Of a stretch of 35,451 bases of DNA, positions 1,868-29,930 are shown one piece after another (position 1 is the first letter of the stretch; the number at the start of each line of letters is the position of its first letter). A program made the translations under genes and the position numbers. The notes beneath the pieces are model-generated. The model saw only the letters and a list, made by a program, of their open reading frames with translations. It had not been told where the DNA came from and searched no databases. The stretch spans positions 1 to 35,451 of the forward strand of contig CAMYNC010000068.1 of NCBI GenBank assembly GCA_947259685.1, given 5' to 3'. Source of the DNA: an uncultured Desulfuromonadales bacterium (GTDB lineage Bacteria > Desulfobacterota > Desulfuromonadia > Desulfuromonadales > Geopsychrobacteraceae).

Positions 1868-3508
1868 CTAACGACCATTCGGTTCCTGCCGGTGGATTGA
1901 AAGTCCAATGCGCTCGGCCTCCGCGAGCGCCCTTTGCGCATCGTCCGCTTTCCCAGCCTCCCGCAGGGCGATGGAAAGCCCGAAGTAGGCTTCTGCCCAA
2001 TCGTCCCGGAGCTCAAGCGTTTTTCGGAAAGCGTTAATTGCTTCCTGTGATTTGCCGCTTTCCAAAAGTGCTCTGCCTAAATTAAAGTGGGTCAGGCCCG
2101 ATTCGGGAGCCGCTTCGACCGCAGCACGAAAGGTCCGAAGCGCCTCGTCTGACTTGCCAAGAGCCCACAGAACTTCTCCCAGGCCGTTCAGTACATCTGG
2201 CCAATCGGGAGCGAGTTCCGTGGCCGCGGTGAAACTGGCGACCGCATCGTCTAATTCCCCTGCATCCAGGTGAGCATACGCGAGACCATATCGTAGCTCA
2301 GGCCAATCCGGTTCCATCTCTCCTGCACGAGTCAGCACCTCCTTGGCCTCTCGACTCCGACCGGTTTGTCTCAGCGCATTGCCAAATTCCAGATGACGGT
2401 AGACGTTATCTGGCTCGAGCTCCATGGCTTTTTGAAATTCTAGAACCGCTTCTATATGCTGACCACCCGTCCACAGTGCCCACGCAAGGCCGGAGTGGGC
2501 TGCGGGCTTTTTCTCGTCGGCCGCCGTGGCGAGCCGATAGGACTCGATCGCTTCTCCAAGATTACCGACATCGAAAAGAGCCGAGGCAAGATTGAGATGG
2601 ATATCGTGACGTACCGACTTGGATCGCGGCTGGAGAGATGTCGCCCGGCGAAAAGCGGTGATGGCCTCGTCGAGACGGTTTTGATTTCGGAGAGTCACTC
2701 CGAGGCTCATCCAAGCTCGCGAGGCAAAGTCATAACCTAGACTGTTATCCGCGGGGTCCTCGTCCGTGGGAGCATTCTCCACTGTTCTCCGGAAGATCTC
2801 TATGGCTTCGCCAACCTCACCCTTCTTACGTAAAGCCAAGCCGAGGTGGTAAAGAGTATTTAGGTCGTTGGGCTTACCATCGATGCGCTGGCGATAAGAT
2901 TGAATCAGCGCGTCGAGCTTCTTGCCACTAGCCATCATTCCTCTGTCCGTTGTAATTGTGCAGCTGGGTTGAATGGGCGGCCTGGCCCAATCAAGATGGG
3001 GACTTTTCTCCACCGAATTTGGCCCGCCGGGGAACTGTGGCTTTTCAGGAAGGGAATGAGAAGCCGAACCTGGAAAAGCAGGCTCTGTCTGCGGCTTGCC
3101 TCTTTCGCCCGTGAGGATCTGAACGATCCTGGCCAACAAGTCGTTTTCGGCTGTCTCTTCCTCCAGGCCCACCAGATCAATATAGACCACGGCTGCCAGC
3201 AAGCCGGATAGGGTGCACTCTTGGACCCGGACGGGAATCAAAAGGCCTTTTTCGCCGGTCGGGTCCTGCTTGAATGCCGCCGCCCATTCCGGTTGGGTAT
3301 AGAGGGCCTTGAGGTAGTCCTCGGAAAGAACGGCGATGGTGCGTTCGGCTTCTTTGGTGGCTTTATCCATCTCCAGGATGAAATTGCCCCCGGCCTTGAA
3401 ATCCCACGCCTGGATGATGCTGGTGTATCCCGCCTCTTCAAGCTGCCAAGCGATCCACTCCGCCCATTTGCGGTCGGCTTTGTTGTAGCTGATGAAGAAG
3501 TCGGCCAT
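1868..3508 (-). CDS. TIR domain-TPR repeat protein
   Basis: 546 aa. Residues 1-135 form a TIR domain of the bacterial TIR_2 type (opening DFFISYNKADRKWAEWIAWQ, then SIIQAWDF, ERTIAVLSEDYL, QPEWAAAF). The Glu of QPEW is in the place of the catalytic Glu of NAD-cleaving TIR domains. A 60-residue Pro/Ser-rich linker follows, then about nine tetratricopeptide repeats from residue 200 to the end (ALRKKGEVGEAIEIFRR, LGRALLESGKSQEAINAF and similar). There is no signal peptide, so it should be cytosolic. AAGGGGGGAAAG precedes the ATG. TIR-TPR proteins are known or suspected antiphage or signalling NADases, with TPRs as sensors or scaffolds. It stands alone, with no obvious operon partner. NADase activity is inferred. 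Confidence 0.85.
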   Translation of the reverse strand: MADFFISYNKADRKWAEWIAWQLEEAGYTSIIQAWDFKAGGNFILEMDKATKEAERTIAVLSEDYLKALYTQPEWAAAFKQDPTGEKGLLIPVRVQECTLSGLLAAVVYIDLVGLEEETAENDLLARIVQILTGERGKPQTEPAFPGSASHSLPEKPQFPGGPNSVEKSPHLDWARPPIQPSCTITTDRGMMASGKKLDALIQSYRQRIDGKPNDLNTLYHLGLALRKKGEVGEAIEIFRRTVENAPTDEDPADNSLGYDFASRAWMSLGVTLRNQNRLDEAITAFRRATSLQPRSKSVRHDIHLNLASALFDVGNLGEAIESYRLATAADEKKPAAHSGLAWALWTGGQHIEAVLEFQKAMELEPDNVYRHLEFGNALRQTGRSREAKEVLTRAGEMEPDWPELRYGLAYAHLDAGELDDAVASFTAATELAPDWPDVLNGLGEVLWALGKSDEALRTFRAAVEAAPESGLTHFNLGRALLESGKSQEAINAFRKTLELRDDWAEAYFGLSIALREAGKADDAQRALAEAERIGLSIHRQEPNGR

Positions 3509-6326: not shown

Positions 6327-6803
6327 TTGAAATCTAAACATCGCCAAATTATGCGAGAGCAGCTGGATAATACCTTTGCTCAACTGTCCAAGGTCAAGGG
6401 ATTGCAACCACCAGTCAAAGGGTGGTTGCGTTCGATCCGTGAAGCGTTGGGGATGACAGGTAAGCAGCTGGGCGAACGCATCGGCGTCAGTCAGCCGCGA
6501 GTCGTACAGATGGAGAAGGACGAAATCTCTGGTGCCGTCACCCTGAAAACCATGCGCCAAGCCGCAGCGGCAATGGATTGCATCTTTGTCTATGCTGTCG
6601 TTCCCCGAACCAGCCTGGAAGATACCATCCGAGAGCAGGCCCTCAAAGTAGCCGAAAAGCGTCTTTCCCGTACGTCCCATACGATGTTGCTCGAAGATCA
6701 ACAGGTGTCGAACGATGAGCGGCAAAAGATGCTCCAAGCCAAGATCGATGATCTGACTCGCGAGATGCCGAAGGATTTCTGGACGGAAAATGATGGATTT
6801 TGA
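6327..6803 (+). CDS. mobile mystery protein A (XRE-type, antitoxin-like)
   Basis: 158 aa protein matching the mobile mystery protein A family. An N-terminal helix (REQLDNTFAQL) is followed by PPVKGWLRSIREALGM and an XRE helix-turn-helix at about residues 35-80 (GKQLGERIGVSQPRVVQMEK). The distinctive C-terminal part contains MDCIFVYAVVP and LEDQQVSNDE. I accept the TTG start at 6327 because family members begin with this basic segment; the next ATG, at 6351, would remove it. It overlaps the Fic gene by 14 bp. It probably represses the shared promoter and neutralises the Fic partner, as inferred from other XRE-Fic pairs. Confidence 0.85.
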   Translation: MKSKHRQIMREQLDNTFAQLSKVKGLQPPVKGWLRSIREALGMTGKQLGERIGVSQPRVVQMEKDEISGAVTLKTMRQAAAAMDCIFVYAVVPRTSLEDTIREQALKVAEKRLSRTSHTMLLEDQQVSNDERQKMLQAKIDDLTREMPKDFWTENDGF

Positions 6804-7377
6804 CTATCCCGAAGGGGCAACACCGATCGACCATGATGAGGCACAGGGTCTTTTGCTGCCCCATATCAGAACCAAAACCGAGCTCGATCGCTGGGAGCAG
6901 GAGAACATCCTTGAGGCGGAAGACACCGTCTTCAGGCGGCGGCAAAAGAATGTCCTGACCGAGAAGTATGTTTGTACTCTACATAAGAGAATGTTCGGAC
7001 ATGTCTGGCGCTGGGCAGGTGAGTTTCGCTGCAGTCAGAAAAACATTGGGATCGAATGGGTGCAAATACCAACCGCCCTGCGCCAGTTATTCGATGAGGT
7101 GAATGGCTGGCTGGAGTTTAACTCTTTTCCGCCTGATGAGATCGCAGCCAGGTTTCACCACCGGCTGGTCGCTATTCATGCGTTTCCCAACGGCAATGGG
7201 CGCCATGCCCGCCTGATGGCCGATATTATCCTGGTGCATTTGCTTGATCGGCAGCGCTTCAGCTGGGGTCAGGATAGCCTGACCAATGCCGGCGACTGCC
7301 GGCGCAGCTACATTGATGCTTTGCGTGCCGCCGATCGGCACGATTATGAGCCTCTACTGGCCTTTGTTCGTTCATAA
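6790..7377 (+). CDS. mobile mystery protein B (Fic/DOC family)
   Basis: 195 aa. The Fic motif HAFPNGNGRHAR (residues 130-141) fits the active-site consensus HxFxxGNGRxxR, with catalytic His130 and the phosphate-binding GNGR intact. The N-terminal part has the family's PLPH-like segment (GLLLPHIRTKTELDRWEQEN) and ends of the Fic fold (MFGHVWRWAGEFR). Fic enzymes transfer AMP or other nucleotide groups to target proteins; mobile mystery B is repeatedly found on mobile elements with protein A. It starts at ATG 6790 inside gene A with AAGGA upstream, so the two are translationally coupled. The motif is complete, so an active toxin is likely; the target is unknown. Confidence 0.87.
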   Translation: MMDFDYPEGATPIDHDEAQGLLLPHIRTKTELDRWEQENILEAEDTVFRRRQKNVLTEKYVCTLHKRMFGHVWRWAGEFRCSQKNIGIEWVQIPTALRQLFDEVNGWLEFNSFPPDEIAARFHHRLVAIHAFPNGNGRHARLMADIILVHLLDRQRFSWGQDSLTNAGDCRRSYIDALRAADRHDYEPLLAFVRS

Positions 7378-7480: not shown

Positions 7481-7684
7481 GTGAGTGCCGCCGAACGAAG
7501 GGTATTTCAGCCAGCAGCCTAGGGACGGATGTCTGAGCAAAGCGAGTTTTCGTCTCCTTGCTGGCTGGAAATTCCCAGAGAGAGGGAACCCCGAAGGGGC
7601 AAACGTTGGGGCGGCCTTCTTTTGATGACTTTGCTTGGCCGAGCAAGAAAAGTCATTCGCCTGGCGGGACGACTCCCGCCGACC
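7475..7684 (+). repeat. dispersed repeat family 1, copy C (middle deleted)
   Basis: Shows GTGAGTGCCGCCGAACG, the hairpin arms around CAGCCAGCAG and CTTGCTGGCTG, GATGTCTGAGCAAAGCGAG, and the terminal GGCGGGACGACTCCCGCC hairpin. The approximately 170-bp middle part seen in copies A, H, I and J is absent. It is directly followed by family 2. Confidence 0.85.
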
Positions 7685-7830
7685 TTACTTCTGAAATAGC
7701 ATCGCTAGATTCGAATTTTTGATTTTCCCCTCCCTTTCCATCCCAAACCTGCATCACCGTACAAACATCGAAACCTTTACGAACCAGAATCTCCCCCAGG
7801 AACGGCCGCTCCGCCCCCCCCCTCAAACTC
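7681..7830. repeat. dispersed repeat family 2, copy 3 (truncated)
   Basis: Carries CTTCTGAAATAGCATCGCTA and the CCATCCCAAACCTGCATCAC core, nearly identical to the copy at 3683, then diverges after a run of nine Cs at about 7817. The minus strand again gives FLGEILVRKGFDVCTVMQVW. Confidence 0.6.
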
Positions 7831-8611: not shown

Positions 8612-8777
8612 ATTCGCCCCCTCTTTTTGCCAGCGATCGCTGCAACACCTCAACCGTTGACGGCTTCGCGGGTAGCTCTTGATTTTCGGGCCGGTGTATT
8701 TAACTAATACCAGAGCATCATGAGAGTTCAAGCCTATAGCTGGGAAGGAATCTGGGGCAGGATTCAATTCGATAACA

Positions 8778-8948
8778 GGCAGCCCAGGGACGGATGTCTG
8801 AGCGCAGCGAGTTTTCGTCTCCTTGCTGGCTGGCAATCTCCGCAGTGAGGGAACCCTGAAAGGGCAAACGGTGGGGCGCATCTCTTTGGTTACTTTCTCT
8901 CGGGCGATCAGAGAAAGTAACTCGCCGGGCGGGACGACTCCCGCCGAA
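8778..8948 (+). repeat. dispersed repeat family 1, copy D (left end and middle missing)
   Basis: Begins inside the left hairpin (GCAGCCCAGGGACGGATGTC), keeps GATGTCTGAGCGCAGCGAG, the GTTACTTTCTCT/AGAGAAAGTAAC hairpin and GGCGGGACGACTCCCGCC. The 160 bp between it and the signal-peptide gene hold only that gene's probable promoter region. Confidence 0.8.
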
Positions 8949-9097: not shown

Positions 9098-9362
9098 AGC
9101 CCCCTGCCCTCCCTTTCCATCCCAAACCTGCATCACCGTACAAACATCGAAACCTTTACGAACCAGAATCTCCCCAAGGAATGCCCTATCCGCACCCGAC
9201 TCCCAGCTGCGAAACTTTTTTATCTGTTTTTTTTGAATCTGTAACCGACCTGTAATCGCTGCCCCCATAACCTCCTGATTAACAAAGTAAATTGCCCCGA
9301 GGCAAATTGGGGACCGAGAGGAAGTTGGTCGCGTCACTTGGCCACTTCCACCAAACAGGAAA
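9098..9362. repeat. dispersed repeat family 2, copy 4 (longest)
   Basis: Matches copy 1 over its length, including the CCATCCCAAACCTGCATCAC core, the T-run followed by GAATCTGTAACC, and the distal GGTCGCGTCACTTGGCCACT block. On the minus strand the frame extends on both sides of the shared peptide core: upstream AIYFVNQEVMGAAITGRL, downstream LAELSIGDVERVLDPISAI. This is the best copy for judging whether family 2 was once a gene. Confidence 0.65.
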
Positions 9363-9388
9363 CTTAAGAAGAAAAAAGGAGGATCGCC

Positions 9389-9643
9389 ATGCCGCACTAT
9401 GCACAAGGGACAACAGGTTGGACGAAGCTGAAGAGTTACCAGGCACTATGGGACCCGAAGATCGATCTCGGAAAATTCTACTTCACAACATTTAAAGGTG
9501 TTCGCCAGGAGACGCCGTACATGACCGCAGAGAACTTCGCACGAGTTCTCGACATCCTGCGTAATGAGGAACCAGTTTACGGTAATGCCAGCACGGGATC
9601 GGTAACCACGACAACCGAGGAACTCGGGGAAGAGGAATCTTGA
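9389..9643 (+). CDS. small conserved-looking protein, first gene of the DUF6345 locus
   Basis: 84 aa, acidic C-terminus. The start is marked by AAAAAAGGAGGATCGCC before ATG 9389. The C-terminal part FARVLDILRNEEPVYGNAST, followed by a Thr run and a Gly-Glu-Glu end, resembles short bacterial hypothetical proteins with an (R)NEKPxY...GEEE ending, as far as I recall; no function is known for these. The ribosome site is nearly the same as that of the DUF6345 gene 264 bp downstream (AAAGGAGGATCAG), suggesting common history. The 263-bp gap between them holds a possible 15-codon frame with GAGAGGAGG upstream (TTG at 9838), nothing larger. Confidence 0.6.
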   Translation: MPHYAQGTTGWTKLKSYQALWDPKIDLGKFYFTTFKGVRQETPYMTAENFARVLDILRNEEPVYGNASTGSVTTTTEELGEEES

Positions 9644-9906
9644 TCAACTGCGGAGGCTCTCCAAACGAGAAGCCAGACAAAGTCAACTCTTCGGCGAAGA
9701 GGTGAGTCGAAGACGACGGGTCTGTAGAAAAGGATGCGCCAAAGAATATTAATCCTTTTGGTACGTTCGGCCTTTTGGTTTGACGGACTCAAAGATGACC
9801 TCATGCTTCAGATACCCTAAAGAGAGGAGGTGCTTTATTGAGAACCATTACTCGGATGATTTCAAATCAAGCGAGAACTATCTAAATCAAACGAAAGGAG
9901 GATCAG

Positions 9907-10656
9907 ATGGCAAGGTTTGGCGTTGAAGGCATACGATATTTTAGTAATGCGCGAGCTGCTAGCGTTAGCACCGCCGGGGATTTGACCTATACATTTAATC
10001 GTTGCAATGGTTTTGATAGCAAACTCCGGGGTGCAGGCCATACTCGCAATTTCTATTGGGCAAACACAGATTGTTGGGAAACAGATATACGTGATTCGGA
10101 TTTGGGAGGAGATGATGTCCACTGGGTCGACGCCATTGACATCTTTTGGATTGAGACTCACGGAAACAATACAGCAGGAGGCCAGGCAAGATTGCTCTAT
10201 GACACCCCACATGATAATTGGCGAACTTTTTCTGGCCAGTGGCAACTCGGTGAAAATTGGAATGCTGAGTGGGTAATGGCTTACTCATGCCATACTGTCG
10301 ATCGCGGTAATGTCGGAGGGTTATGGAATATCTTTTCCGGAATGCATATTTACTGCGGAGCCTGGGACGACATGTGGGCTGGCTGGACAACTGAAGAATG
10401 CGGTGAGGATGTGGGTGACAATTTGACTGATGGTGACACTGTGTCAGAGGCCTGGATAGACGGTGTTTCAGATTGGTGGCATGACAACCACCCCATAACT
10501 GTTTGTGTCGGTAATGCGGCCACCTGGAATGGAGGAAATATCCGCTGGGACCTAAGCTATCTTAATCGGGATCACTTATGGGGCCATGGCAATGTGGACC
10601 CGGATTTACCGCCATCTCAGCAGGCTTGCTTACTATGGCGTTGGGCGGAGGGCTAA
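9907..10656 (+). CDS. DUF6345 caspase-like protein
   Basis: 249 aa, no signal peptide. The pattern fits DUF6345: a strand with IFWIETHGNN (His85-Gly86), a second with EWVMAYSCHTVD (Cys128), then GLWNIFSGMHIYCG, a glycine-rich loop and a helix with TVSEAWIDGVSDWW. His-Gly at the end of one strand and Cys at the end of the next is the dyad layout of the caspase/gingipain/CHAT protease fold. Unusually rich in Trp (about 17). Start ATG 9907 has AAAGGAGG. It is followed after 3 bp by the 304-aa gene. Catalysis is inferred from the dyad and not proven; the protein could be a non-proteolytic member of the fold. Confidence 0.75.
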   Translation: MARFGVEGIRYFSNARAASVSTAGDLTYTFNRCNGFDSKLRGAGHTRNFYWANTDCWETDIRDSDLGGDDVHWVDAIDIFWIETHGNNTAGGQARLLYDTPHDNWRTFSGQWQLGENWNAEWVMAYSCHTVDRGNVGGLWNIFSGMHIYCGAWDDMWAGWTTEECGEDVGDNLTDGDTVSEAWIDGVSDWWHDNHPITVCVGNAATWNGGNIRWDLSYLNRDHLWGHGNVDPDLPPSQQACLLWRWAEG

Positions 10657-10659
10657 ACC

Positions 10660-11574
10660 ATGAAAGAAAAAAAACTAATCGAAAAACTGGTTAACAGCGT
10701 AAAAGATGTTCCTTTGGAAGCAGAAATTTTTGCAATACGACAACATTCTTTGGAAGAGTTAAAACGGCGCACAAAAGCTTTTTTGGCAATGGTGGGAGAC
10801 GCATACAACCTGCCACTTTCAAGAGGCGACTGGATTGACGAACAGGGTCGCACACTCATCCGTTTACCTCAAGGAGCCCGAGCGGTGATTTTTCACGCAT
10901 CCGGGGCGATGAAGTTTGTGTCGGGTCTGAATCCAATGGAAGCACTCTTCAAGAAGACATTGGAACGGGAAGAGCTAATAAAACTTGTGGAAGAAACAGC
11001 TGACAGCCTCAACATTTCAACGTTTGTCAAAAAAAACGAGTCTTTATCTTTTGAACGGCTATGGCAAATTAAGGCTTGTGCGGCCGATCGAAAAGGGGAA
11101 GCTGTGGATCCCGTCCTTTGCAGGATTGTTGGCGCTTATCGTCACTTCGTTGCTGATTTACCCGTGTGGGGCGCGGCGTCCATTGCAATCAAACTTGCAG
11201 AAGAAAGGAGACTCGACTCCTTAACCGTCCAGATTCGTCACTCCACCGACGAGGTCATTAATAGAGAAAAGATACTCCCACCTGAGGAGGCAGCCCGCCA
11301 GATCATTCTGCAGCTTAAAACACTAATGGGCAAATCAGAAATTCCCGTTAGTGAATTTGCCAAGCTCGATGAGCTGCACTTTGGCTACCTCAGCCTTACA
11401 AAACGAAAAGTTCAACGCGTTTTAGCCCCGGCCTACATCACATCTATTAGGATAGTTGGACAGGAAGAAGCTCAGGCTTATTTATTCGCAATACCGGCGA
11501 CAGATAAAAACTATCTACCCTTGTGCCGGTCAGGAAGTGAAGCACTATTGACCCCCTTACGATGTGCTGGGTAG
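10660..11574 (+). CDS. partner protein of the DUF6345 gene, function unknown
   Basis: 304 aa, no membrane segment or signal peptide. The ATG lies 3 bp after the DUF6345 stop, so the two are coupled. Residues 1-130 are helical and charged; residues 160-300 alternate strands and helices (VWGAASIAIKLAEERRL, LAPAYITSIRIVGQEEAQAY, LFAIPATD). The second half recalls the N-terminal part that precedes DUF6345 in longer single-chain proteins (a strand with Gly, a helix, then PAYI and a closing strand). I therefore suspect a split version of that architecture, with the order reversed. This resemblance is from memory and weak. No active-site motif is seen. Confidence 0.75.
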   Translation: MKEKKLIEKLVNSVKDVPLEAEIFAIRQHSLEELKRRTKAFLAMVGDAYNLPLSRGDWIDEQGRTLIRLPQGARAVIFHASGAMKFVSGLNPMEALFKKTLEREELIKLVEETADSLNISTFVKKNESLSFERLWQIKACAADRKGEAVDPVLCRIVGAYRHFVADLPVWGAASIAIKLAEERRLDSLTVQIRHSTDEVINREKILPPEEAARQIILQLKTLMGKSEIPVSEFAKLDELHFGYLSLTKRKVQRVLAPAYITSIRIVGQEEAQAYLFAIPATDKNYLPLCRSGSEALLTPLRCAG

Positions 11575-11752: not shown

Positions 11753-11870
11753 CCCCTCCCATGTGAGCGCAGCCGAACGAAGAAGATTTCCAGCGAGCAG
11801 ATTTGGGACGGATGTCTGAGCGCAGCGAGTTTTCGTGCCCTTGCTGGATGGAAATCTCCGACGAGGAACA
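11753..11870 (+). repeat. dispersed repeat family 1, copy E (left half only)
   Basis: CCCATGTGAGCGCAGCCGAA, hairpin arms GAAGATTTCCAGC and GGAAATCTCC, and GATGTCTGAGCGCAGCGAG are present; everything to the right of the first hairpin is missing. Its right neighbour, about 11857-11910, resembles 6141-6195 (GACGAGGAA, then CGAGAA and CTGAGGTTCT), hinting at a further degenerate shared segment. Confidence 0.75.
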
Positions 11871-12024
11871 ACACCTTCTCCTTAGCGAGAAAAGGCCTGA
11901 GGTTCTCAGCCATCCCTTCACCCCGAGCTTTCCCATTTTGATCGCCATAGTTGGGAAGCCGATGCCCTCGTTTCGGAGTATAATTACGATATTGTGGATG
12001 CCGAAGCCTGATCAAGGGAGCCCC

Positions 12025-13401
12025 ATGTCGTACAGACAAAGTCTTGGCTGTCGGACGTATGTTTTCGAGGATCTGAAAACCCTTCTCGCCAAGGCGTCGC
12101 CGGCCCGCTCTGGCGACACGCTGGCAGGCCTCGCTGCGGCCACCACCGAGGAGCGAGTTGCTGCCCAGATGGCACTGGCCGAGCTGCCCTTGACCACCTT
12201 CCTCACCGAAGCAGTCGTCCCTTACGAAACGGATGAAATCACCCGGCTTATTCTCGATAGTCACGACGCTGAGGCCTTCGCTCCAATCAGCCACCTGAGC
12301 GTCGGCATGTTCCGCAACTGGCTCCTTTCAGAGGCGGCCGACAGCGACTCTCTGGAAGCTCTGGCTCCAGGCCTTTCCCCGGAAATGGTGGCTGCCACCT
12401 CGAAAATCATGCGCCTGCAGGACCTGGTGCTGGTGGCCAGCAAATGCCGGGTCGTCACTCGTTTCCGCAACACCATCGGCCTGCCGGGACGCCTTTCGAC
12501 CCGGCTGCAGCCCAACCATCCCACCGATGATCCCAAGGGGGTCGCTGCCAGCATCGTGGATGGCCTGTTCTACGGCAGCGGCGATGCGGTCATCGGAATC
12601 AACCCGGTCACCGACAACCAGGAGGCGGTCTCCAGGCTCCTCCATCTGCTGGATGAAATCCGGCAGCGCTACGAGATCCCCACCCAGTGCTGCGTTCTAA
12701 CCCACGTGACCAACACTCTCAGCGCCATCGGCAGAGGTCTTCCCGTGGACCTGGTTTTCCAGTCCATCGCCGGAACCGAAGCGGCCAATGCAAGTTTCGG
12801 CGTTTCCCTGGCCCTGCTTGACGAGACCCACCAGGCCGCCCTGGCTCTGGGGCGCGGCACCCTCGGCAACAACCTCATGTATTTCGAAACCGGCCAGGGC
12901 AGCGCCCTTTCGGCCAACGCCCACCACGGAGTCGACCAGCAGACCTGCGAGGCCCGGGCATACGCCGTTGCCCGGCGCTATCAGCCGCTACTGGTAAATA
13001 CGGTGGTCGGATTCATCGGCCCCGAGTATCTTTACGATGGCAAACAGATCATCCGGGCTGGCCTGGAGGACCATTTCTGCGGCAAGCTGCTCGGTCTGCC
13101 CATGGGCTGCGACATTTGCTACACCAACCACGCCGAAGCTGACCAGGACGACATGGACAACCTTCTCACGCTCTTTGGGACGGCCGGCGGGACCTTCATC
13201 ATGGGGGTTCCTGGCGCCGACGACATCATGCTCAACTACCAGAGCACCTCTTTCCACGACGCTCTTTACCTGCGCTCCCTCCTCGGTCTGCGTCCGGCAC
13301 CCGAATTCGCCGAGTGGCAACTCCGAATGGGGCTCACCGATGATCAGGGGCTGCTCATTCCCGTCGATAAACGCCACAAGCTTCTGGAGGGCCTCGCATG
13401 A
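12025..13401 (+). CDS. eutB: ethanolamine ammonia-lyase large subunit
   Basis: 458 aa, the usual length. EutB forms the alpha subunit of the adenosylcobalamin-dependent ethanolamine ammonia-lyase (ethanolamine to acetaldehyde and ammonia) and holds the TIM-barrel active site. Family hallmarks: GSGDAVIGINPVTDN near residue 190, FQSIAGTEAANASFG, YFETGQGSALSANAHHGVDQ and CDICYTNHAEADQDDMDN. I start at ATG 12025 (AAGGGAG upstream) because the frame extending to 11803 reads through a repeat. It overlaps eutC by 4 bp (ATGA). No eutA reactivase, shell protein, aldehyde dehydrogenase or permease is adjacent, so this is the short, compartment-free form, or the rest is elsewhere. High GC and strong codon bias. 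Confidence 0.97.
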   Translation: MSYRQSLGCRTYVFEDLKTLLAKASPARSGDTLAGLAAATTEERVAAQMALAELPLTTFLTEAVVPYETDEITRLILDSHDAEAFAPISHLSVGMFRNWLLSEAADSDSLEALAPGLSPEMVAATSKIMRLQDLVLVASKCRVVTRFRNTIGLPGRLSTRLQPNHPTDDPKGVAASIVDGLFYGSGDAVIGINPVTDNQEAVSRLLHLLDEIRQRYEIPTQCCVLTHVTNTLSAIGRGLPVDLVFQSIAGTEAANASFGVSLALLDETHQAALALGRGTLGNNLMYFETGQGSALSANAHHGVDQQTCEARAYAVARRYQPLLVNTVVGFIGPEYLYDGKQIIRAGLEDHFCGKLLGLPMGCDICYTNHAEADQDDMDNLLTLFGTAGGTFIMGVPGADDIMLNYQSTSFHDALYLRSLLGLRPAPEFAEWQLRMGLTDDQGLLIPVDKRHKLLEGLA

Positions 13402-14234
13402 AAGAGATGACTACGCCGGGCTCACCGGTCACCCTGGATCCCTGGGCAGAACTGAAGCGATATACCGATGCCCGCATCGCCCTGGGCCGATGCGGCGTCA
13501 GCCTTCCCACGGCAAAGCTCCTGGAATTTCAGCTGGCCCATGCGCGGGCGCGGGACGCCGTTCACCAGCCTTTTACTTCAGAGGAGCTCACTAGACAACT
13601 GGCAGAGCTCGGCTTGACCACGATTGTGCTGCACAGCGCCGCCGCTGGCCGCCGGGAGTACCTGCAAAGGCCCGATCTCGGCCGCCAACTGGCCCCTGAA
13701 AGTAGGGAGCACCTCCAGTGCAGCGGCCCCGCAGCCGGGGATGCTCCTCTATACGATCTGGCGCTCGTGGTGGCGGATGGTCTCTCCGCGCCGGGAGTCC
13801 ATGCCAGCGCTGTTCCTTTGGTCAGGGCCTTTCTTCCCCTCGCCCGAGCCAGGCACTGGCGCCTGGCTCCCGTCTGCCTGGTGACGCAGGGGCGGGTTGC
13901 CATCGGAGACGAAATTGCCAGCCTTCTCAAAGCGCAGGCGGTCGCCATTTTAATCGGCGAACGCCCAGGGCTCAGTTCCCCCGACAGCCTGGGCATCTAT
14001 ATGACCTACGACCCGACTCCGGGCACCACCGATGAACGTCGCAACTGCATTTCGAACGTGCGCCAAGCCGGACTTTCACCTGCTGTTGCGGCTCAGAAAC
14101 TCTGCTACCTGACCAGTGAGGCCTTGCGCCGCAAGCTCTCCGGAGTGAATCTAAAGGACGAACTCTCGCTCCCCGAGCTCTCGCGTCAGATGACGAAACT
14201 CCTGGGGGAGGACGATCGTTCAACGGCACAGTGA
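13398..14234 (+). CDS. eutC: ethanolamine ammonia-lyase small subunit
   Basis: 278 aa; partner of EutB that closes the cobalamin-binding cleft. Recognised by WAELKRYTDARIALGRCGVS, the following ELAHARARDAV-like helix (QLAHARARDAVH), DLALVVADGLSAPGVHASA, LLKAQAVAILIGERPGLSSP and the conserved end SLGIYMTYDP, then NCISNVRQAGLSP. The start ATG overlaps the eutB stop, so equal production by coupling is expected. The N-terminal targeting peptide that directs EutC into microcompartments is not evident: the protein begins almost directly with the catalytic-partner domain, in line with the absence of shell genes. Confidence 0.96.
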   Translation: MKEMTTPGSPVTLDPWAELKRYTDARIALGRCGVSLPTAKLLEFQLAHARARDAVHQPFTSEELTRQLAELGLTTIVLHSAAAGRREYLQRPDLGRQLAPESREHLQCSGPAAGDAPLYDLALVVADGLSAPGVHASAVPLVRAFLPLARARHWRLAPVCLVTQGRVAIGDEIASLLKAQAVAILIGERPGLSSPDSLGIYMTYDPTPGTTDERRNCISNVRQAGLSPAVAAQKLCYLTSEALRRKLSGVNLKDELSLPELSRQMTKLLGEDDRSTAQ

Positions 14235-14375: not shown

Positions 14376-14579
14376 TCCCCTGTGAGTGCCGCCGAACGCA
14401 GGAGATTTCCAGCAAGCAGATAACGGATGTCTGAGCGAAGCGAGTTTTCGTCTCCTTGCTTGCTGGTAATCCCCATAATGAGGGAACCCCGCAGGGGCAA
14501 ACGATGGGGCGCATCTCTTTGGTTACTTTCTCTCGGGCGAGCAGAGAAAGTAACTCGCCGGGCGGGGCGAAACCCCGCA
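14376..14579 (+). repeat. dispersed repeat family 1, copy F (middle deleted)
   Basis: GTGAGTGCCGCCGAACGCAG, GAGATTTCCAGCAAGCAG, GATGTCTGAGCGAAGCGAG, the GTTACTTTCTCT/AGAGAAAGTAAC hairpin and a final GGCGGGGCGAAACCCCGC. It lies between eutC and the methyltransferase pseudogene; the 210 bp after it show no clear gene. Confidence 0.85.
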
Positions 14580-16914: not shown

Positions 16915-17907
16915 TCAACGTTTCCGCTCCGGCCCCTTCTGAGACGGGGTCTGTTGTTTAGTCTTTTCCTGGCGCAGCTGCTTCGCAAGCCGCTCCTGGA
17001 TCTGGTGACGCTCAGTCTTAAGGGCGGGCATGGTCTTGACGAATTTTAGGACATCTTCTGCAAGGGTTTGATCTTGTGGATCTGAACTTTTTGCAAGGTC
17101 TTTTGCGACGGTCAACCAGCCTTTCCGGATGCCGGTTTGCCGGTGTTTGATTTTCTCTTCCCAGGGCCTTCCCTCTTCGGCTTTCTGGCTGTGTTCATTG
17201 AGGGCTGCCCTCACCTTGGCTTCATCAACCCTGGGCCGTTCTCCCCTCTTTCGTAGCGAGAGTATGGCTTGGCGGGTTGGTTTGCGCACGACGCCACGCG
17301 GGGCGCGGGCGGTGGCTTCGGCCTCGATACCCTGCTGGCGGAGTTTTTTAGCAAAGGTTTCCCGCCACTTCTGCGGTTGCCCCTTTTTTACATGCAACCT
17401 GGTGCCATCATAGCCCAGGTTTTTCACTGTTAAATGGACATGCGGGTGTTTTTCGTCTTTGTGCAGGACGAAAAGATATTGGTGGTTTTCGGCAAAGGTG
17501 TCTTTGGCGAACTCACGCGCCGCTTTCTTGACTCCTTCCGGGTTGGTTCCGGGTGGCATCGAAAGGATCAGATTTGTGCTGTCGCGGGTGTTGCGGTTAC
17601 GCTTACCGCCATCCTGAATCCATTCTTCGGCAAATTCCGCCACGTCCTCACGCCCAGAAACGATGGAGCCGCGTTCGTCTTCGGCTTCAAGTTTTCCTTT
17701 CCGGGTGATGTAATCAAGGTGGATTCTCAGGTGCCCTCCCCCTTTGGCGTTCCCGGTCATTTTCACCATGACTTCCGGGGTGCGTCGGACCACGCGGGAA
17801 ACGCGGGCTCGGGCGCTCCCGAAATTCAGGTTTTTGGCTTTGGCGCGACTGGTTTTCGGTTTACCTTCTAACAGCCCCTCGGCTAATCCGTAGGCGGCAT
17901 TACTCAT
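16915..17907 (-). CDS. MOBP-type relaxase (mobilization nuclease)
   Basis: 330 aa. The relaxase cuts one strand at oriT and stays linked to the 5' end during transfer. The three-histidine metal site is clear: HKDEKHPHVHLTVKN, at about residues 149-163. The N-terminal region (VRRTPEVMVKMTGNAKGGGH, then LDYITRKGKLEAED) contains the expected conserved segment before it. The Tyr nucleophile is probably among those in the N-terminal third. The C-terminus is basic and Gln-rich. I choose ATG 17907 (GGAG 9 bp upstream) over TTG 17913; it overlaps the preceding gene by 8 bp. Rather short, with no helicase or primase domain, so the element would be mobilized by a conjugation system from elsewhere. Confidence 0.88.
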   Translation of the reverse strand: MSNAAYGLAEGLLEGKPKTSRAKAKNLNFGSARARVSRVVRRTPEVMVKMTGNAKGGGHLRIHLDYITRKGKLEAEDERGSIVSGREDVAEFAEEWIQDGGKRNRNTRDSTNLILSMPPGTNPEGVKKAAREFAKDTFAENHQYLFVLHKDEKHPHVHLTVKNLGYDGTRLHVKKGQPQKWRETFAKKLRQQGIEAEATARAPRGVVRKPTRQAILSLRKRGERPRVDEAKVRAALNEHSQKAEEGRPWEEKIKHRQTGIRKGWLTVAKDLAKSSDPQDQTLAEDVLKFVKTMPALKTERHQIQERLAKQLRQEKTKQQTPSQKGPERKR

Positions 17908-18421
17908 CGTCAATACTCCAACGGTTCATGCTTTGGTCGATCAGGCGGGAGACTTCGCGCCGATGGGCTGCAAAATCACCCGCAAGCTCTTTGATCTCAG
18001 CTCGCTTGAGCCGTTCCCCTTCCCGAAAGTCTACGTTGATTGCGCGGGCGATTTGGTTGAGGTTACGGCCGATGGCGGCGAGTTCCCGGTTTGATTCTCG
18101 TAAGACCTCGATCTCGGCAGCGCTAAAGGTCGGCTCCCGAAAAAGAACGCTTCGCACCAGGCCGACAATCCAGGCGGTGTGCCGGGTGAATCCATCGCCT
18201 CGGCTGCGCTTGGTCATGCGGTCAAATTCCTTCTTGGTGAAGCTTAGGGTGGTTCGGGAACTGCGGTCGATCCGTTCCGATTCTAGCCCCTCTCCTTTCA
18301 CACCTATGACCTGGTTGACCATCCGCCGCAGCAGTTCAGTTTCGGTCATGCCTTGAGCTTTGGCAAGATTCCGAAATGCTGTCTTTTGATCGCTGTCAAC
18401 TTCGGCTTTGATCAGTGGCAT
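17900..18421 (-). CDS. MobC/TraJ-like relaxosome accessory protein
   Basis: 173 aa. The N-terminus resembles a ribbon-helix-helix (PLIKAEVDSDQKTAFRNLAK, then TETELLRRMV), and the C-terminal part holds the MobC signature ELAAIGRNLNQIARAIN. Such proteins bind near oriT, melt the DNA and recruit the relaxase. It overlaps the relaxase start by 8 bp and is transcribed from the promoter at 18481-18508, next to the candidate nick site. Confidence 0.85.
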   Translation of the reverse strand: MPLIKAEVDSDQKTAFRNLAKAQGMTETELLRRMVNQVIGVKGEGLESERIDRSSRTTLSFTKKEFDRMTKRSRGDGFTRHTAWIVGLVRSVLFREPTFSAAEIEVLRESNRELAAIGRNLNQIARAINVDFREGERLKRAEIKELAGDFAAHRREVSRLIDQSMNRWSIDDE

Positions 18422-19898: not shown

Positions 19899-20837
19899 TT
19901 AGCGTTCCAGCTTCGGCGGTTTCTGCTCCTGCTGCTGGGTTTCCTTGATCAGCGGCGAGCGATTGGGTTTGTTGTGGGCGATATTGTGAGCCAGGCGGCT
20001 ATTCGTCGTTTCCATGAAACGCTGTTGATCGACCTGATCGGTAAAATTCTGCCCCACGAATTTTCCGGCCACTTCCCGAATTGCCAAGGCATCGAGAATC
20101 GCTTGATCGCCTGGATATTTTTTTAAAAGATCTTTTTTTTCAGAAGTCAGAAAGGTTTTTGCTTTCTCGATGTGGTCTTTATCTATTCCACCACTTGCCT
20201 TGATTTGCTTGGGATCGAGCTTGTTCAGTAACCGCTCGGTCACCCAATGGGGTGGATTATTCAGATAAATAACCGTTTTCCCTTCCTTGATCGCTGTAAT
20301 TAACCGCGTTGGATCATTGTCGCTTGAGTTGTCATAGACCTGGGCCAGATCAGATTGCTTGATTGCCTCTGGCAGGAGGTCCATAACCCGCTCATAACGG
20401 GACAGGGTTTTTTCTTGCGGAACATCATGCCCGCCCTTTTGTACCCGATCCTTTACCCGCTCCAGGTTTATTAATGGGTCGTCTGTGCCAACAAAATAAA
20501 AACGAACATCATAACCGCGCTCTTTTGCCTCGCGCATAAAATCAACTTTGCTCGGATGAGACATGACCGACTCAAAAGAGAGACTACGACCATCATTCAG
20601 CGCCGCCTGGCGGCGTTGATCAGCTATGGTTTGAGCTGTTTTGTTGGCGGTAAAAAAGTCTTGTGGGGTAGGGGAACTCTGGTTTTTTAATAGCTCCTGC
20701 GTGATTTCATCAGGATTGATATATTCCCCAAGATCTAAACCTTGGGAACGTAACAAATCTGTGGCGGTGGTTTTGCCGGACCCGTTGGGGCCGGCGACAA
20801 CCACCAGAAAAGGGGATGGTTTTTCAGTGTCCTCCAT
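19899..20837 (-). CDS. zeta toxin family P-loop kinase
   Basis: 312 aa. Walker A GPNGSGKTT at residues 16-24, then YINPDEITQEL, ARRQAAL-like helix (DQRRQAALNDGRSLSFESVM) with the acidic substrate-binding segment, and DVRFYFVGTDDPLINLERV, RYERVMDLLPEA: the set of motifs seen in zeta/PezT toxins, which phosphorylate UDP-N-acetylglucosamine and block wall synthesis. Family members carry about 220-270 aa; the extra C-terminal 75 residues form the tail domain also found in the neighbour at 19412. The ATG at 20837 has no strong ribosome site, which fits low expression of a toxin. The small gene 79 bp upstream is its likely antitoxin; a classical epsilon protein is absent. Confidence 0.87.
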   Translation of the reverse strand: MEDTEKPSPFLVVVAGPNGSGKTTATDLLRSQGLDLGEYINPDEITQELLKNQSSPTPQDFFTANKTAQTIADQRRQAALNDGRSLSFESVMSHPSKVDFMREAKERGYDVRFYFVGTDDPLINLERVKDRVQKGGHDVPQEKTLSRYERVMDLLPEAIKQSDLAQVYDNSSDNDPTRLITAIKEGKTVIYLNNPPHWVTERLLNKLDPKQIKASGGIDKDHIEKAKTFLTSEKKDLLKKYPGDQAILDALAIREVAGKFVGQNFTDQVDQQRFMETTNSRLAHNIAHNKPNRSPLIKETQQQEQKPPKLER

Positions 20838-23169: not shown

Positions 23170-24150
23170 TTAAATTTTAACCCTCCCTGCAATCTCCTGC
23201 AGGCGCTTAGCTGCAACTGCCCTAAAGTCTGGGTCAGTAACTTTTTTGAGGTAGTTTTCCAGTGGACCCAAGAGCCGTTCAAGCTGCTCATAAAGCGCCG
23301 TTTCCAGGTCTTCCCCAGGTTTCCCCGGAGAATCAGCCGACGATAGATTTTCAACCAGCGCAGAACCGGCGACCGGCGACGAAGTATCAGCCGTTAGAGC
23401 CGAAACCGAAGGCTCTTTCCCCTCTGCCCCTGCTGCGGCCAGGCCCTGGTCCTCGACCTTGGCCGGCAAAGTTTTTTGCTCTTTTAGATCTGCGATAAAA
23501 GTCTTAACTTCGGCCTGTGAAATCTTGCGATCACCCCGGCAGAAGGATTCTACATCGTCCGGAAAAATCTTAGCGGTTCGATGCAATGCAGCCAAGGCCT
23601 GAATGTCTCGGTTGCGCGAAGAATCATAGAGCTCACGAACGCAATCAGGCAGCTGAAAGAAAACCGCATGATCAGAAACGTAGCTGGCAGGCTTGCCAAG
23701 CATCTTGGCAATCTGCCCTTTTTTGTCTCCCGATTCTAAACGGCGCTCGATGAAGTGAGCGATTTCCAGCGGCGTCAGATCCTCGCGCTGAATATTCTCA
23801 ATAGCTTGATCATAGCCATTATGATCATCATCGATAAATGCCGGGATCTCGGTTTTTTCAGCCTTAAGGCTCCCCCAATAGCGGCGCTCGCCGTGATTGA
23901 TATAGTAGATCCCGGCCTCGTTTGCCGGCTTGACCGAAATCGGACTTTTTACTCCGCGCTCGCGGATCGATGCCGCCAGCTCGGCCAAGCGCTCTTGGTT
24001 GATCTCCTGGCGCGGCTGATCTGGATCCGGCAAGATTTTATCAAGGGGGATCAACAGCGGCTTGCCGCTGCTGCCCGCTTCCAGGTCGGTTTCTGCCAAG
24101 AAATCAGCGGGGTTAAATCCATCTAAACCGCTTAAATCAACACTGTTCAT
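23170..24150 (-). CDS. parB: ParB/KorB-type partition protein
   Basis: 326 aa. The N-terminal ParB domain has LIPLDKILPDPDQPRQEINQ, then SISVKPANEAG-type strands and the arginine motif INHGERRYWGSLKAEK (CTP-binding box), with AIENIQREDLTPLEIAHFIE after it. The helix-turn-helix is KKGQIAKMLGKPASYVSDH, close in style to KorB. A Ser/Ala/Pro-rich linker and a C-terminal dimerisation segment follow (LYEQLERLLGPLENYLKKVT). It loads on a centromere and works with ParA for segregation; KorB relatives also repress plasmid genes. It overlaps parA by 4 bp. The palindromes at 18536, 22657 and 27406 are the candidate binding sites. Confidence 0.9.
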   Translation of the reverse strand: MNSVDLSGLDGFNPADFLAETDLEAGSSGKPLLIPLDKILPDPDQPRQEINQERLAELAASIRERGVKSPISVKPANEAGIYYINHGERRYWGSLKAEKTEIPAFIDDDHNGYDQAIENIQREDLTPLEIAHFIERRLESGDKKGQIAKMLGKPASYVSDHAVFFQLPDCVRELYDSSRNRDIQALAALHRTAKIFPDDVESFCRGDRKISQAEVKTFIADLKEQKTLPAKVEDQGLAAAGAEGKEPSVSALTADTSSPVAGSALVENLSSADSPGKPGEDLETALYEQLERLLGPLENYLKKVTDPDFRAVAAKRLQEIAGRVKI

Positions 24151-24896
24151 AGGTCAATCCCTCCCACTTTTTCAAAAACAACTTTGAAGGCAGCTTTAAA
24201 TTCTTTTCCGGCTTCTGCTGCTGCCGATTTTTTAAGTTTCCAGACCGGTATCCCCTCTGCTAATGCTTCCGGAATCGAGGACCGAAAGCCGATTTTCGCC
24301 GGGATAAGAAGGTCACTGTAATTCTTGACCAGCTCTGTAAAGGTGGCTTTTTGCCGCTCTGAGCGGGAGTTGAAGCGGTTGGGTAGCATCCCCAAAAAGT
24401 TCAGCTTCGGATTAAATTTCTGCTTAACGCCAAAGATCGTTTGCAGCATCATTTTAATACCGTCGATACTATATTCTTCCAGCTCTATCGGGGATAAAAC
24501 ATGATCTGCAACCACTAGGGCGGCGGTCATGCGCAGGCCCAAAGAGGGCGGAGTATCGATCACACAGTAATCAAAAGAGGTTCCAAGCTTGCCAGCCTGC
24601 TGTTTAAAATGGTTGATCACCTGGGCACTCTGGCGCTCTATGTCGGCCATTTTGGGATCGGCGGCGATCAGGGTGATGCCCTCATTTGCAATCACCTTAA
24701 CCGGCCCTGCCGAGAACAAAGAACTGGCGACCGCTCCGCAACCGTGAGGGCCAAGGGTCTTGCTGGCATTTCCCTGGGGGTCGATATCGATAAATAAAAC
24801 CGACTTTCCCGCCTCGGCCAGCGCCATAGCTAAATGAATACTGACGGTGGTTTTGCCAGGCCCGCCCTTTTGATTTGAGACCGTAATGGTTTTCAT
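24147..24896 (-). CDS. parA: ParA family ATPase
   Basis: 249 aa. Deviant Walker A KGGPGKTT at 10-17 with the signature Lys10, Walker A' VLFIDIDPQGNAS, and Walker B YCVIDTPPSLGLR. No N-terminal DNA-binding domain, so it is the short (type Ib or chromosomal-like) form, which usually leaves operon repression to another protein; the RHH gene 26 bp upstream is suited for that. It is overlapped by parB (ATGA). AAGGG precedes the ATG. ParA moves ParB-bound DNA over the nucleoid. Confidence 0.92.
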   Translation of the reverse strand: MKTITVSNQKGGPGKTTVSIHLAMALAEAGKSVLFIDIDPQGNASKTLGPHGCGAVASSLFSAGPVKVIANEGITLIAADPKMADIERQSAQVINHFKQQAGKLGTSFDYCVIDTPPSLGLRMTAALVVADHVLSPIELEEYSIDGIKMMLQTIFGVKQKFNPKLNFLGMLPNRFNSRSERQKATFTELVKNYSDLLIPAKIGFRSSIPEALAEGIPVWKLKKSAAAEAGKEFKAAFKVVFEKVGGIDL

Positions 24897-27650: not shown

Positions 27651-27858
27651 CAAGAAAATCCGCAACATATTGTGCGTCCGAAAGGAATTTTTCTACGAGA
27701 TCTGGTGGTTTGCGTTTGACCTGGGGCGTTGCAGGCTCTCCCGCAGAAAGGGGGAGCGGAAAACAGACGGCCCCTTGCCTGGTTGCAGCTAGGGGGAAGG
27801 CTTTCCCCCGTCTGATCGATTTAAAAGGTTGAGATGTATTCTCTTGCAATCTTTTTTA

Positions 27859-27879
27859 ATACCGGTATCATACCGGTAT
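27859..27879 (+). promoter_or_regulatory. tandem ATACCGGTAT operator of the KfrA-type gene
   Basis: Two 10-bp palindromes ATACCGGTAT (27859-27868, 27870-27879) separated by one base, 37 bp before the start of the KfrA-type gene; half-site-like TATT and TATC follow. A 11-bp phasing (one helical turn) places two dimers on the same face. Autorepression by the encoded KfrA_N protein is likely. Confidence 0.7.
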
Positions 27880-27915
27880 TTGGTATTAAAAAGTATCAAA
27901 CAAGGAGGAAAAACT

Positions 27916-28833
27916 ATGGCACGACCGGGGACTCCCTATCCAGTGGTAAAAGAGATTTGCAATAGACTGGCGGCTCAAGATATGCGGCCCTCCTACAGCC
28001 TGGTTGCTGCCCAACTCGACGGCAATCCATCTAAAAAGACCATCCTTGAACACATTGAACAATGGCGTAACGAACAGAAAAACGCCGCCACCGTACCGGG
28101 AATTTCAGAAACCGCTGTTACCGCCTTCAAAGCTGAAATAGCTGCCCACGTCCAAGCCTCCCAAGAAGGCCTTGAAATCGAACTGGCGGAACTTAAAGAA
28201 AGTAAACGAGAAGCCCTTGAGGCCCTGGAAGCGACTGAAAATCTAAACACAAATTTAGAAAATGAACTGCAGGAATTGAAAGATCAGCTCGCCGCCGATC
28301 AACAGGACCATGAAAAGACCCGCGCAGGCCTGACCTCAACAATTGAAAACCTGACGAATCAGGTAGAAAATTTACAGGCAGAACGTGATCAGCTCATAAC
28401 TTCCGGCGAAGCCGCCAGGACCGAAGCCGCCCGCGCACAGCTCCAACTTGACCAGACCGTGAAAGCGGTGGCCTCGGCTGAAAAACGAGAAACCGAACTC
28501 AACAAAAAGATTGAACGGCTGACGACTGAAAAAATCGACTCAGAAAAAACCGCCGCAGTAGCCGCGGCCCGGGTGGAAGAGTTAAGAGAAAAAACCACCA
28601 ATCTGAAAACAAGTCTGGATGAAATTAAAAAGGAATACCTCAGCCTCGAAACCACCCTGAATGAAACCCGCAAGGAAGTGACAACGAACGCCCTATTGAT
28701 CAAAGATGCCGACAAACGCGCTGCAGTGGCCGAACAAAAAGCCAATGATCTGACCGAAAAAACCAAGGATCTGAAAATCTCCCTGGATGAAGCCACGAAA
28801 AGAAATAAAGAATTGGAAAAGAAAAAGGGATAG
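27916..28833 (+). CDS. KfrA-type plasmid coiled-coil DNA-binding protein 1
   Basis: 305 aa from ATG 27916 (AAGGAGG upstream). Residues 1-60 fit the KfrA N-terminal DNA-binding domain (PYPVVKEICNRLAAQDMRPS, SLVAAQLDGNPSKKTILEHI). From residue 75 to the end the chain is a continuous coiled coil with heptads rich in Glu, Leu and Lys (LENELQELKDQL, ERDQLI, KIERLTTEK). KfrA proteins bind an operator in their own promoter and support plasmid stability and nucleoid-like scaffolding, together with partition proteins. It faces away from the minus-strand module and probably is one end of it. Confidence 0.85.
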   Translation: MARPGTPYPVVKEICNRLAAQDMRPSYSLVAAQLDGNPSKKTILEHIEQWRNEQKNAATVPGISETAVTAFKAEIAAHVQASQEGLEIELAELKESKREALEALEATENLNTNLENELQELKDQLAADQQDHEKTRAGLTSTIENLTNQVENLQAERDQLITSGEAARTEAARAQLQLDQTVKAVASAEKRETELNKKIERLTTEKIDSEKTAAVAAARVEELREKTTNLKTSLDEIKKEYLSLETTLNETRKEVTTNALLIKDADKRAAVAEQKANDLTEKTKDLKISLDEATKRNKELEKKKG

Positions 28834-29083
28834 TTTTTAGGCCCAATACGGGGACAGCTCACGAAATGGAAAAAATGTACGCCTTTCGGGAGATGGTCGT
28901 TTTTCAAAACTTACTACATTTAAAATTGACTCTGCCCTCACCAGGGTGCGCTGATCGGAAATTGTTTTTCCTGGATCGCGCCTGCGGCGCTTTGGACCGT
29001 CCCTCCTCCGCCGATTTCCGTTCGAAAAAAATTGGTTCGGGTAGACAGAACAAGGCCTTGTCCATGGTGCCTCCAAGATCTTT

Positions 29084-29617
29084 TCACTCCGGTTCCACCT
29101 GCAGGGCGACAAGGTAGCGCGAGACCATGTTGTACGTTGCGATAATACCGACCAATTCATTCATCTGCTGATCATCGGGCAGAGCGGCACGAGCAGCGGC
29201 GAAGGTGGTATCGCTGACATGGATGGAAATGGTCACCTCCCTGGCCAATTTGAGAATAGCGCGGTCGCTTGCATCGAAAAATAAAAGCTCGTCATTATCG
29301 CTTTTGAGATACCGCAGGGCATCCAGTTCCTCTTGTGTGCCGCCAACCCGCAGAAACTCCGGGACGTGGTGATGGTATTCGTAGGCGGCATCGGTCAGGA
29401 CCGCCACGGCACAGATGGCCAATTCCTGGATGCGGGCGGGAAGAGAAAGCTTTCCGCGCACCTGGCGGAGGAGGCTGTTCCAGCCCTTGGCAAAGGGAGG
29501 GCTGTTAAGCAGCATGCGATCAAGATTGAGTAATTCGCCATCCCGGCGGGCCAGGATGCTGTCGATCAGGTCACGTGGTTCGTCGATATCGCGTGGAACA
29601 TAAGGAATGCGTGGCAC
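29084..29617 (-). CDS. carboxymuconolactone decarboxylase family protein
   Basis: 177 aa from GTG 29617 (AAGGAG 8 bp upstream). The AhpD/CMD-like helical fold is shown by LLRQVRGKLSLPARIQELAI, AYEYHHHVPEFLRVGGTQEE and AREVTISIHVSDTTF. The peroxidase CxxC of AhpD is absent (the position reads TDAAYEYHHH), so it is closer to the decarboxylase-like branch; the His cluster could bind a substrate acid. The role in the cell is unknown. It stands alone between the two KfrA-type genes. The 250 bp between it and KfrA 1 hold nothing I can name. Confidence 0.85.
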   Translation of the reverse strand: MPRIPYVPRDIDEPRDLIDSILARRDGELLNLDRMLLNSPPFAKGWNSLLRQVRGKLSLPARIQELAICAVAVLTDAAYEYHHHVPEFLRVGGTQEELDALRYLKSDNDELLFFDASDRAILKLAREVTISIHVSDTTFAAARAALPDDQQMNELVGIIATYNMVSRYLVALQVEPE

Positions 29618-29828
29618 CTGGATACTCCTTCTGTTCGGGATGCCCCCTTAGGGAGGAATAACTAATTATAACCGATCGTATCCAGAACCCATTGTAGCAC
29701 TGCCGAAGTGAGATATAGGGGGGAAGGTGCGAAGAGAATATTTCCGTCTCAAATCTTGCAAAATAGAAGCCGACCCCAGCAAGCGGCCACTTTTGCCCTT
29801 TCAGTAATAAAACCCCGACTTTTGAAAG

Positions 29829-29868
29829 ACACGAGGCCCCAGATCGACATCGACTTGGGGCCTCGTGT
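29829..29868. terminator. 13-bp hairpin before KfrA 2
   Basis: ACACGAGGCCCCA and TGGGGCCTCGTGT around a 14-nt loop, followed by TTTGC on the plus strand and CTTTC on the minus strand. A bidirectional terminator is plausible; it insulates the KfrA 2 promoter. The rest of 29618-29828 shows no gene. Confidence 0.7.
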
Positions 29869-29872
29869 TTTG

Positions 29873-29912
29873 CTTGTCTTGTGTATTTTTTGATGTATTA
29901 TACATTTTACAA
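29873..29912 (+). promoter_or_regulatory. promoter and operator of KfrA 2
   Basis: TTGTCT, 16 bp, TATTAT, with the -10 inside the dyad ATGTATTATACAT (6+1+6). The overlap of a palindrome with the -10 suggests autorepression. The site does not resemble the ATACCGGTAT pair of KfrA 1, so the two are probably controlled separately. Confidence 0.55.
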
Positions 29913-29930
29913 TCAAAAAAAGGGAAAGCA

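Follow-up and report, generated by a model that had tools for sequence, protein, structure and literature searches.

The window, the whole stretch of 35,451 nucleotides that was analysed, carries three open reading frames in succession on the + strand, at the positions given for them in the original prediction. An 84-aa ORF (9389-9643) is followed by a gene for a 249-aa DUF6345 protein (9907-10656, + strand), a presumed protease of caspase fold, and by the gene for p304 (10660-11574, + strand), a 304-aa protein whose predicted fold makes it a tandem PepSY/FTP-like partner. The DUF6345 stop codon and the p304 ATG are 3 bp apart, as first described. The same string, AAAGGAGGATC, forms the ribosome-binding site of the DUF6345 gene (9894-9904, + strand) and stands ahead of the 84-aa ORF (9375-9385, + strand); these are its only two exact copies in the whole window, in agreement with the similar ribosome sites noted for the two genes, and the string is mostly the consensus ribosome site.

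Copies of a 68-nt dispersed repeat (family D2), a non-functional part of the region, lie upstream (8770-8837) and downstream (11788-11855) of the locus, and two further copies are found in the window at 7505-7572 and 14403-14470. The locus had been described as an island between repeats. The repeats are real, but because copies also border eutBC, they do not set the locus apart as an island of its own. The eutB/eutC ethanolamine ammonia-lyase pair (11803-14234) is flanked by 68-nt copies on both sides. A second dispersed repeat, of 91 nt and 93% identical, occurs upstream of the locus at 7728-7818 and 9107-9197. Elsewhere the window contains plasmid-type genes, encoding ParA, ParB/KorB, two KfrA-like proteins, a MobA/VirD2-type relaxase and a zeta-toxin-like protein (23170-24896, 27829-30608, 16915-17913 and 19899-20837), and it probably belongs to a plasmid or conjugative element, so that the pair may here sit on a mobile replicon. 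It also encodes a TIR-TPR protein (1868-3508, - strand; TIR_2, E 6e-34) and a Fic protein (6790-7377, + strand; PADLOC candidate PDC-S04, E 3e-24).

The 249-aa protein matches Pfam DUF6345 (PF19872) over residues 7-247 (E 3e-57; 194.1 bits against a curated cut-off of 26.9). DUF6345 is the sole family to appear, with no match to the Pfam CHAT or Peptidase_C14 profile up to E 1. A caspase-like fold had been named beforehand as a test of the prediction, and the structure model (pLDDT 96) has the caspase/CHAT fold (caspase-haemoglobinase fold), its matches including SAVED-CHAT (8tl0) and the caspases 3h11 and 4prz at about 10% identity. The proposed His85-Gly86/Cys128 dyad is present (H85, CAC, 10159-10161; C128, TGC, 10288-10290; + strand), and none of H85, G86 and C128 varies among the 85 aligned relatives from the window's subfamily. 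H85 and C128 come after predicted strands 79-83 and 122-126, a placement that agrees with clan CD. Judging from this model, DUF6345 would be a cysteine protease of clan CD (caspase/CHAT fold) in which the His and the Cys are conserved. In the 37 distant members that were read out, a His box and a Cys box are visible in most, the Cys box not being evident in a few (L125, L099). L125 (1339-2274), a weak DUF6345 member that has no evident catalytic Cys and is followed by a same-strand 365-aa frame, is possibly a pseudoprotease, as far as its sequence can tell. The subfamily alignments A1 (36 rows) and A3 (77 rows, to which seven loci were added) were drawn from 120 listed of 169 DUF6345 homologues. 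The homologue search admits solely proteins of 0.55-1.75 times the query length, so the length of about 250 aa of these 120 closest relatives says little.

p304 belongs to no Pfam or NCBIfam family above cut-off, has no PADLOC match and is itself unmatched by Pfam FTP or PepSY up to E 1. Its structure model (pLDDT 90, with a C-terminal tail, residues 290-304, of low confidence) shows the tandem PepSY/FTP-like fold known from YycH, YycI, YpeB and the propeptides of metalloproteases. Among its fold matches 5coz ranks first, followed by YycH, YycI and YpeB (9a5d, 2fgt, 2o3o, 5boi) and then by propeptides; the matched chains of vibriolysin MCP-02 (3nqz/3nqy) and an Aspergillus metalloproteinase (4k90), which residue numbering suggests to be propeptides, give middling Z scores of 8.1-8.4. 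The signature LPVWGAAS occupies residues 167-174 (11158-11181, + strand). Matches to RNF31-UBA (E 0.19), a NusA-like family (E 0.027) and a PHROG (E 0.024) were taken as noise, and PDB sequence searches with the DUF6345 or the p304 profile returned nothing useful. The p304 alignments A2 (39 rows) and A4 (80 rows, plus eight loci) derive from 120 listed of 235 entries, one of which (P0121) is the window's own protein.

We scanned a single genome of each species, using a DUF6345 alignment assembled regardless of neighbours. In each of the 37 loci obtained, a p304 relative lies directly behind DUF6345 on the same strand (38 pairs). According to record titles, the hosts include a cyanobacterium, Massilia, Telluria, Variovorax, Paucibacter, Roseateles, Cellulomonas, Isoptericola, Pelolinea, Saprospiraceae, Bradyrhizobium, Mycobacterium and a Methanotrichaceae archaeon. 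With starts chosen by script, the gap between the two genes is 2-4 bp in 21 of 35 measured pairs and -8 to 129 bp in the other 14. Across 62 genomes of the genus Massilia, whose relatedness makes them non-independent samples, DUF6345 was detected in 22 (21 over the cut-off, the extra genome having a fragment under it only) and p304 in 21, all among those 22. Of the 194 genomes from the cyanobacterial centre's phylum, one, the centre genome itself, has p304, and four have DUF6345. Pairwise distances among DUF6345 and p304 proteins are correlated with a rho of 0.94 over 37 pairs (35 loci, the second L004 pair and the window, with L023 and L034 omitted), a value reached by 0 of 999 permutations, and the correlation is 0.89 when the set is thinned to roughly one per genus (16 pairs). 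The divergence of p304 is about 2.1 times that of DUF6345. The recurrence of the two genes is beyond chance, and the homology search proposed for the 304-aa gene, which was expected to co-occur with DUF6345 in other genomes, shows that p304 is a dedicated partner of DUF6345.

Duplicated and broken copies were also seen. On a single contig, L004 (1385-8372) carries a second complete DUF6345-p304 pair about 5 kb from the first. L034 has both genes broken into pieces and genome G377 has fragments of them, and broken copies also involve genome G376; in L023, DUF6345 is kept and p304 is shortened. DUF6345 is interrupted and the partner frame open in L073 and L074, and the reverse holds in L061 and L068. 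In L063, DUF6345 is interrupted with a partner frame remaining, both being interrupted or cut short.

More distant relatives extend this picture. DUF6345 occurs in 21 of 148 genomes from the phylum to which the Methanotrichaceae genome belongs, and most of these archaeal loci have, immediately downstream, a partner-like frame of about 250-335 aa. Profile comparison links p304 to 15 archaeal partners (95.1%, E 3e-8, over 246 columns), to A5, a set of 18 partners from three surveyed phyla (96.6%, E 5.9e-10), and to Bacteroidota partners (85.8%, E 5.4e-6); as controls, the DUF6345 profile scored 0.1% and 60 column-shuffled profiles scored 0.9% or less. Searched against Pfam up to E 1, A5 members match FTP (5 of 18, best E 4.4e-5), YycI (3 of 18, best E 6.7e-8) and DUF4901 (2 of 18, best E 5.1e-5). 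The single PDB match of the A5 profile, to a phage capsid (E 0.049), looks like chance.

The partner domain is also found within DUF6345 chains. It constitutes the N-terminal region of long chains such as L049 (667 aa), which archaeal partners match at 98.9% (E 1.2e-17); L049-type chains number 22 listed proteins including the query, with DUF6345 in 21. The direct match of p304 to this fused domain is weak (60%, E 8.7e-5), so the link runs via the intermediate family. In L065, L109, L116, L117, L119 and L120 the domain is C-terminal. Genome G1099 has DUF6345 within frames of 2301 and 2256 aa (L118/L121 and L122/L123), each with a partner-like frame adjoining. The 14 Chloroflexi-type chains (L085-L098; open frames of 717-857 aa) have an N-terminal region that hhalign relates to two intermediate families at 20.5% and 23.3% (E about 1e-3) and for which it finds no similarity to p304 (0.2%, E 0.38). 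An independent partner hit below 0.01 was obtained in L092 and in none of the other 13. This region may be a highly diverged pro-domain, a suggestion drawn from sequence.

A census of six phylum samples (1534 genomes) yielded 71 distinct DUF6345 genes, including six that the earlier scan had already supplied as seeds; it omits L121 and L123, the second pieces of L118 and L122. When partners were counted at E < 0.01 from partner profiles not trained on the same locus, a partner domain was present in the same chain or a nearby gene for 52 of the 71 genes, or 48 of 65 without the seeds. These 48 cases comprise 35 separate frames (in one, L069, the hit is upstream), 7 N-terminal domains and 6 C-terminal domains, the last two making 13 of 48 fused; in L061, L063 and L068 the partner is fragmented or truncated. 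Of the 19 genes for which none was counted, 13 are Chloroflexi-type chains, two are seeds with p304 itself (L044, L045) and two lie at contig ends (L050, L115). The last two, L070 and L125, are followed by a same-strand frame of 304 or 365 aa that the partner profiles do not match. DUF6345 with a PepSY/FTP-type partner occurs in archaea and in no fewer than five bacterial phyla. The first description of DUF6345 as usually part of longer chains proved half right, 30 of the 71 surveyed genes lying in frames of at least 450 aa (stop to stop).

In line with the reported lack of signal peptides, a scan of N-termini by simple hydropathy, as opposed to a signal-peptide predictor, was negative for the window's DUF6345 and p304. 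Within the window's subfamily, these two included, a strongly hydrophobic N-terminus was seen in the first 55 residues of 0 of 85 aligned DUF6345 and 0 of 89 aligned p304 proteins. For the distant sets, where the span was 75 residues and 21 of 37 distant DUF6345 proteins were taken, such an N-terminus was seen in all 15 archaeal partners, in 2 of 7 partners from Bacteroidota and in 19 of the 21 DUF6345 proteins. Since the window's DUF6345 and p304 have no signal peptide, a cytoplasmic site of action is presumed for both. Elsewhere among the DUF6345 branches, the partner domain is N- or C-terminal in the same chain, or is a membrane-anchored neighbour of a secreted protease.

The acidic 84-aa protein had been put forward as a possible target. 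It has no Pfam, NCBIfam or PADLOC match and weak PHROG matches only (best E 0.045), and no relative was found in the 37 loci, 12 whole genomes, phages or plasmids, the genome search having been run without a positive control. We therefore judge the ORF to lie outside the DUF6345-p304 pair, of which it is probably not a component; the lack of family matches and relatives speaks against it both as a partner and as the target. PADLOC assigned 0 families to the 84-aa, DUF6345 and p304 proteins at E 0.1. A neighbour test on 448 ORFs of the 37 loci, pair included and several loci having short flanks, found no third gene common to at least four loci except within Massilia/Telluria or within Cellulomonas: the clusters present in at least four loci are the pair, the antisense reading of the pair, Massilia/Telluria genes and Cellulomonas genes. 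The neighbour common to eight Massilia/Telluria loci is one that we take, on its sequence, to be molybdopterin-oxidoreductase-like. Neither viral_contigs, searched with patterns for close relatives only, nor the plasmid collection gave a match to the pair. Without a PADLOC match or a third gene widely common to the 37 loci, the suggested conflict or programmed-death role was not borne out.

A two-gene unit, a caspase fold with His and Cys, a fold shared with propeptides and fusions in both orders together point to a protease and its pro-domain. On balance, we lean towards a closely coupled zymogen-like pair, consisting of a caspase-fold cysteine protease and a trans-acting propeptide-type inhibitor/chaperone. 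p304, as a tandem PepSY/FTP-type domain, would act in trans as a folding chaperone and/or inhibitor of DUF6345. The protease would be synthesised together with its own brake and might be released by some trigger; we infer physical binding of p304 to DUF6345, inhibition or chaperoning, and proteolytic activity. Among the readings first offered, a protease with a regulator appears the best, a putative caspase-like protease being here encoded apart from a partner that is fused to it in other species. That part of the first interpretation survives, and the 84-aa target and the conflict role are not supported. It is plausible, if still short of probable, that DUF6345 and its partner constitute an undescribed prokaryotic zymogen system, in which a metalloprotease pro-domain family would stand before, after or beside the protease, and that the pair has moved to the cytoplasm here.

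Several observations count against the zymogen-like pair: p304 itself has no FTP or PepSY match in Pfam, it diverges faster than DUF6345, the partner frame persists beside an interrupted DUF6345 (L063, L073, L074), the direct match to the fused domain is weak, and the Chloroflexi-type region does not resemble p304. The strongest p304 fold matches, moreover, are regulators not known as protease inhibitors. According to PMC10653890, PepSY, part of a BLIP-like fold group, was originally characterised as an inhibitor of M4 proteases that acts intramolecularly, and the PepSY domains of YpeB are seemingly not what binds SleB, with CopD behaving likewise towards its partner. The main rival is therefore a role as activator or stabiliser, in which p304 would be a sensor of a ligand or surface to which it binds and would stabilise, localise or activate the protease instead of inhibiting it, as YycH/YycI do with WalK and YpeB with SleB. 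The ranking of YycH, YycI and YpeB ahead of propeptides, the hydrophobic N-terminus of all 15 archaeal partners and the faster divergence of p304 suit such a sensor, but fusion at either end of the protease and the FTP profile matches favour a pro-domain, a membrane anchor is seen in 0 of 89 members of the p304 subfamily, and just 2 of 7 Bacteroidota partners pass the hydropathy threshold. We consider a sensor or activator rather unlikely.

The faster divergence also fits p304 as a substrate of DUF6345, cleavage of which would free an active fragment. Adjoining protease and substrate genes occur in type III CRISPR systems, where CalpL cleaves CalpT (PMC11229360), and the low-confidence tail at 290-304 could be a cleavable end. 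Fusion of the partner domain with the protease, seen in 13 of the 48 confirmed non-seed cases, a fold common to protease propeptides and the absence of an effector-like family in p304 (Pfam, NCBIfam, PADLOC) make a substrate improbable. It is very unlikely that DUF6345 is a caspase-fold pseudoenzyme or scaffold complexed with p304, as the lack of an evident Cys box in L125 and L099 and the absence of 'DUF6345' and 'PF19872' from open PMC papers might suggest, given that all 85 aligned relatives keep H85, G86 and C128 and both boxes persist in most distant members. Least credible is a three-gene conflict or death module with the acidic 84-aa protein as target or antitoxin. AAAGGAGGATC does precede both the 84-aa and DUF6345 genes, and the plasmid-like window has TIR-TPR, Fic and zeta-toxin-like genes elsewhere, but 263 bp separate the 84-aa ORF from DUF6345, the 84-aa protein lacks relatives in the collections searched, and neither PADLOC (three proteins) nor the neighbours of the 37 loci indicate such a module.

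Known systems resemble the pair in part. SAVED-CHAT (8tl0) and the caspases (3h11, 4prz) belong to clan CD like DUF6345, which is only about 10% identical to them, has no SAVED domain and is paired instead with a PepSY/FTP-like partner. The FTP/PepSY propeptides of M4 and M36 enzymes share the predicted fold of p304 and act with a metalloprotease, whereas p304 is encoded by a separate downstream gene, lacks a signal peptide and has a caspase-fold protein as its partner. YycH, YycI and YpeB are membrane proteins that regulate a histidine kinase or a cortex-lytic enzyme; p304, in contrast, has no membrane anchor and is genetically tied to the presumed protease DUF6345, adjoining it in 37 of 37 loci and fused to it in relatives. 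Gingipain RgpB (4ief) is secreted with its pro-domain in the same chain, in cis, unlike the separate gene for p304 in the window. Yeats et al. in 2004 reportedly proposed PepSY as a general regulator of peptidase activity. A search of the open PMC library, whose coverage leaves subscription journals and preprints outside, returned no paper for 'DUF6345' or 'PF19872', and no paper on a PepSY-caspase pair was among the matches listed there, as judged by titles and the beginnings of abstracts.

Our analysis offers a testable function for two uncharacterised families, with DUF6345 as a candidate widespread caspase-fold protease and p304 as its putative trans-acting pro-domain. If this is true, regulation by PepSY/FTP domains extends from metalloproteases to cysteine proteases, and DUF6345-p304 would provide a small two-gene system in which to test it. 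A further question then arises, namely which substrates a caspase relative restrained in this way would cleave in the cytoplasm.
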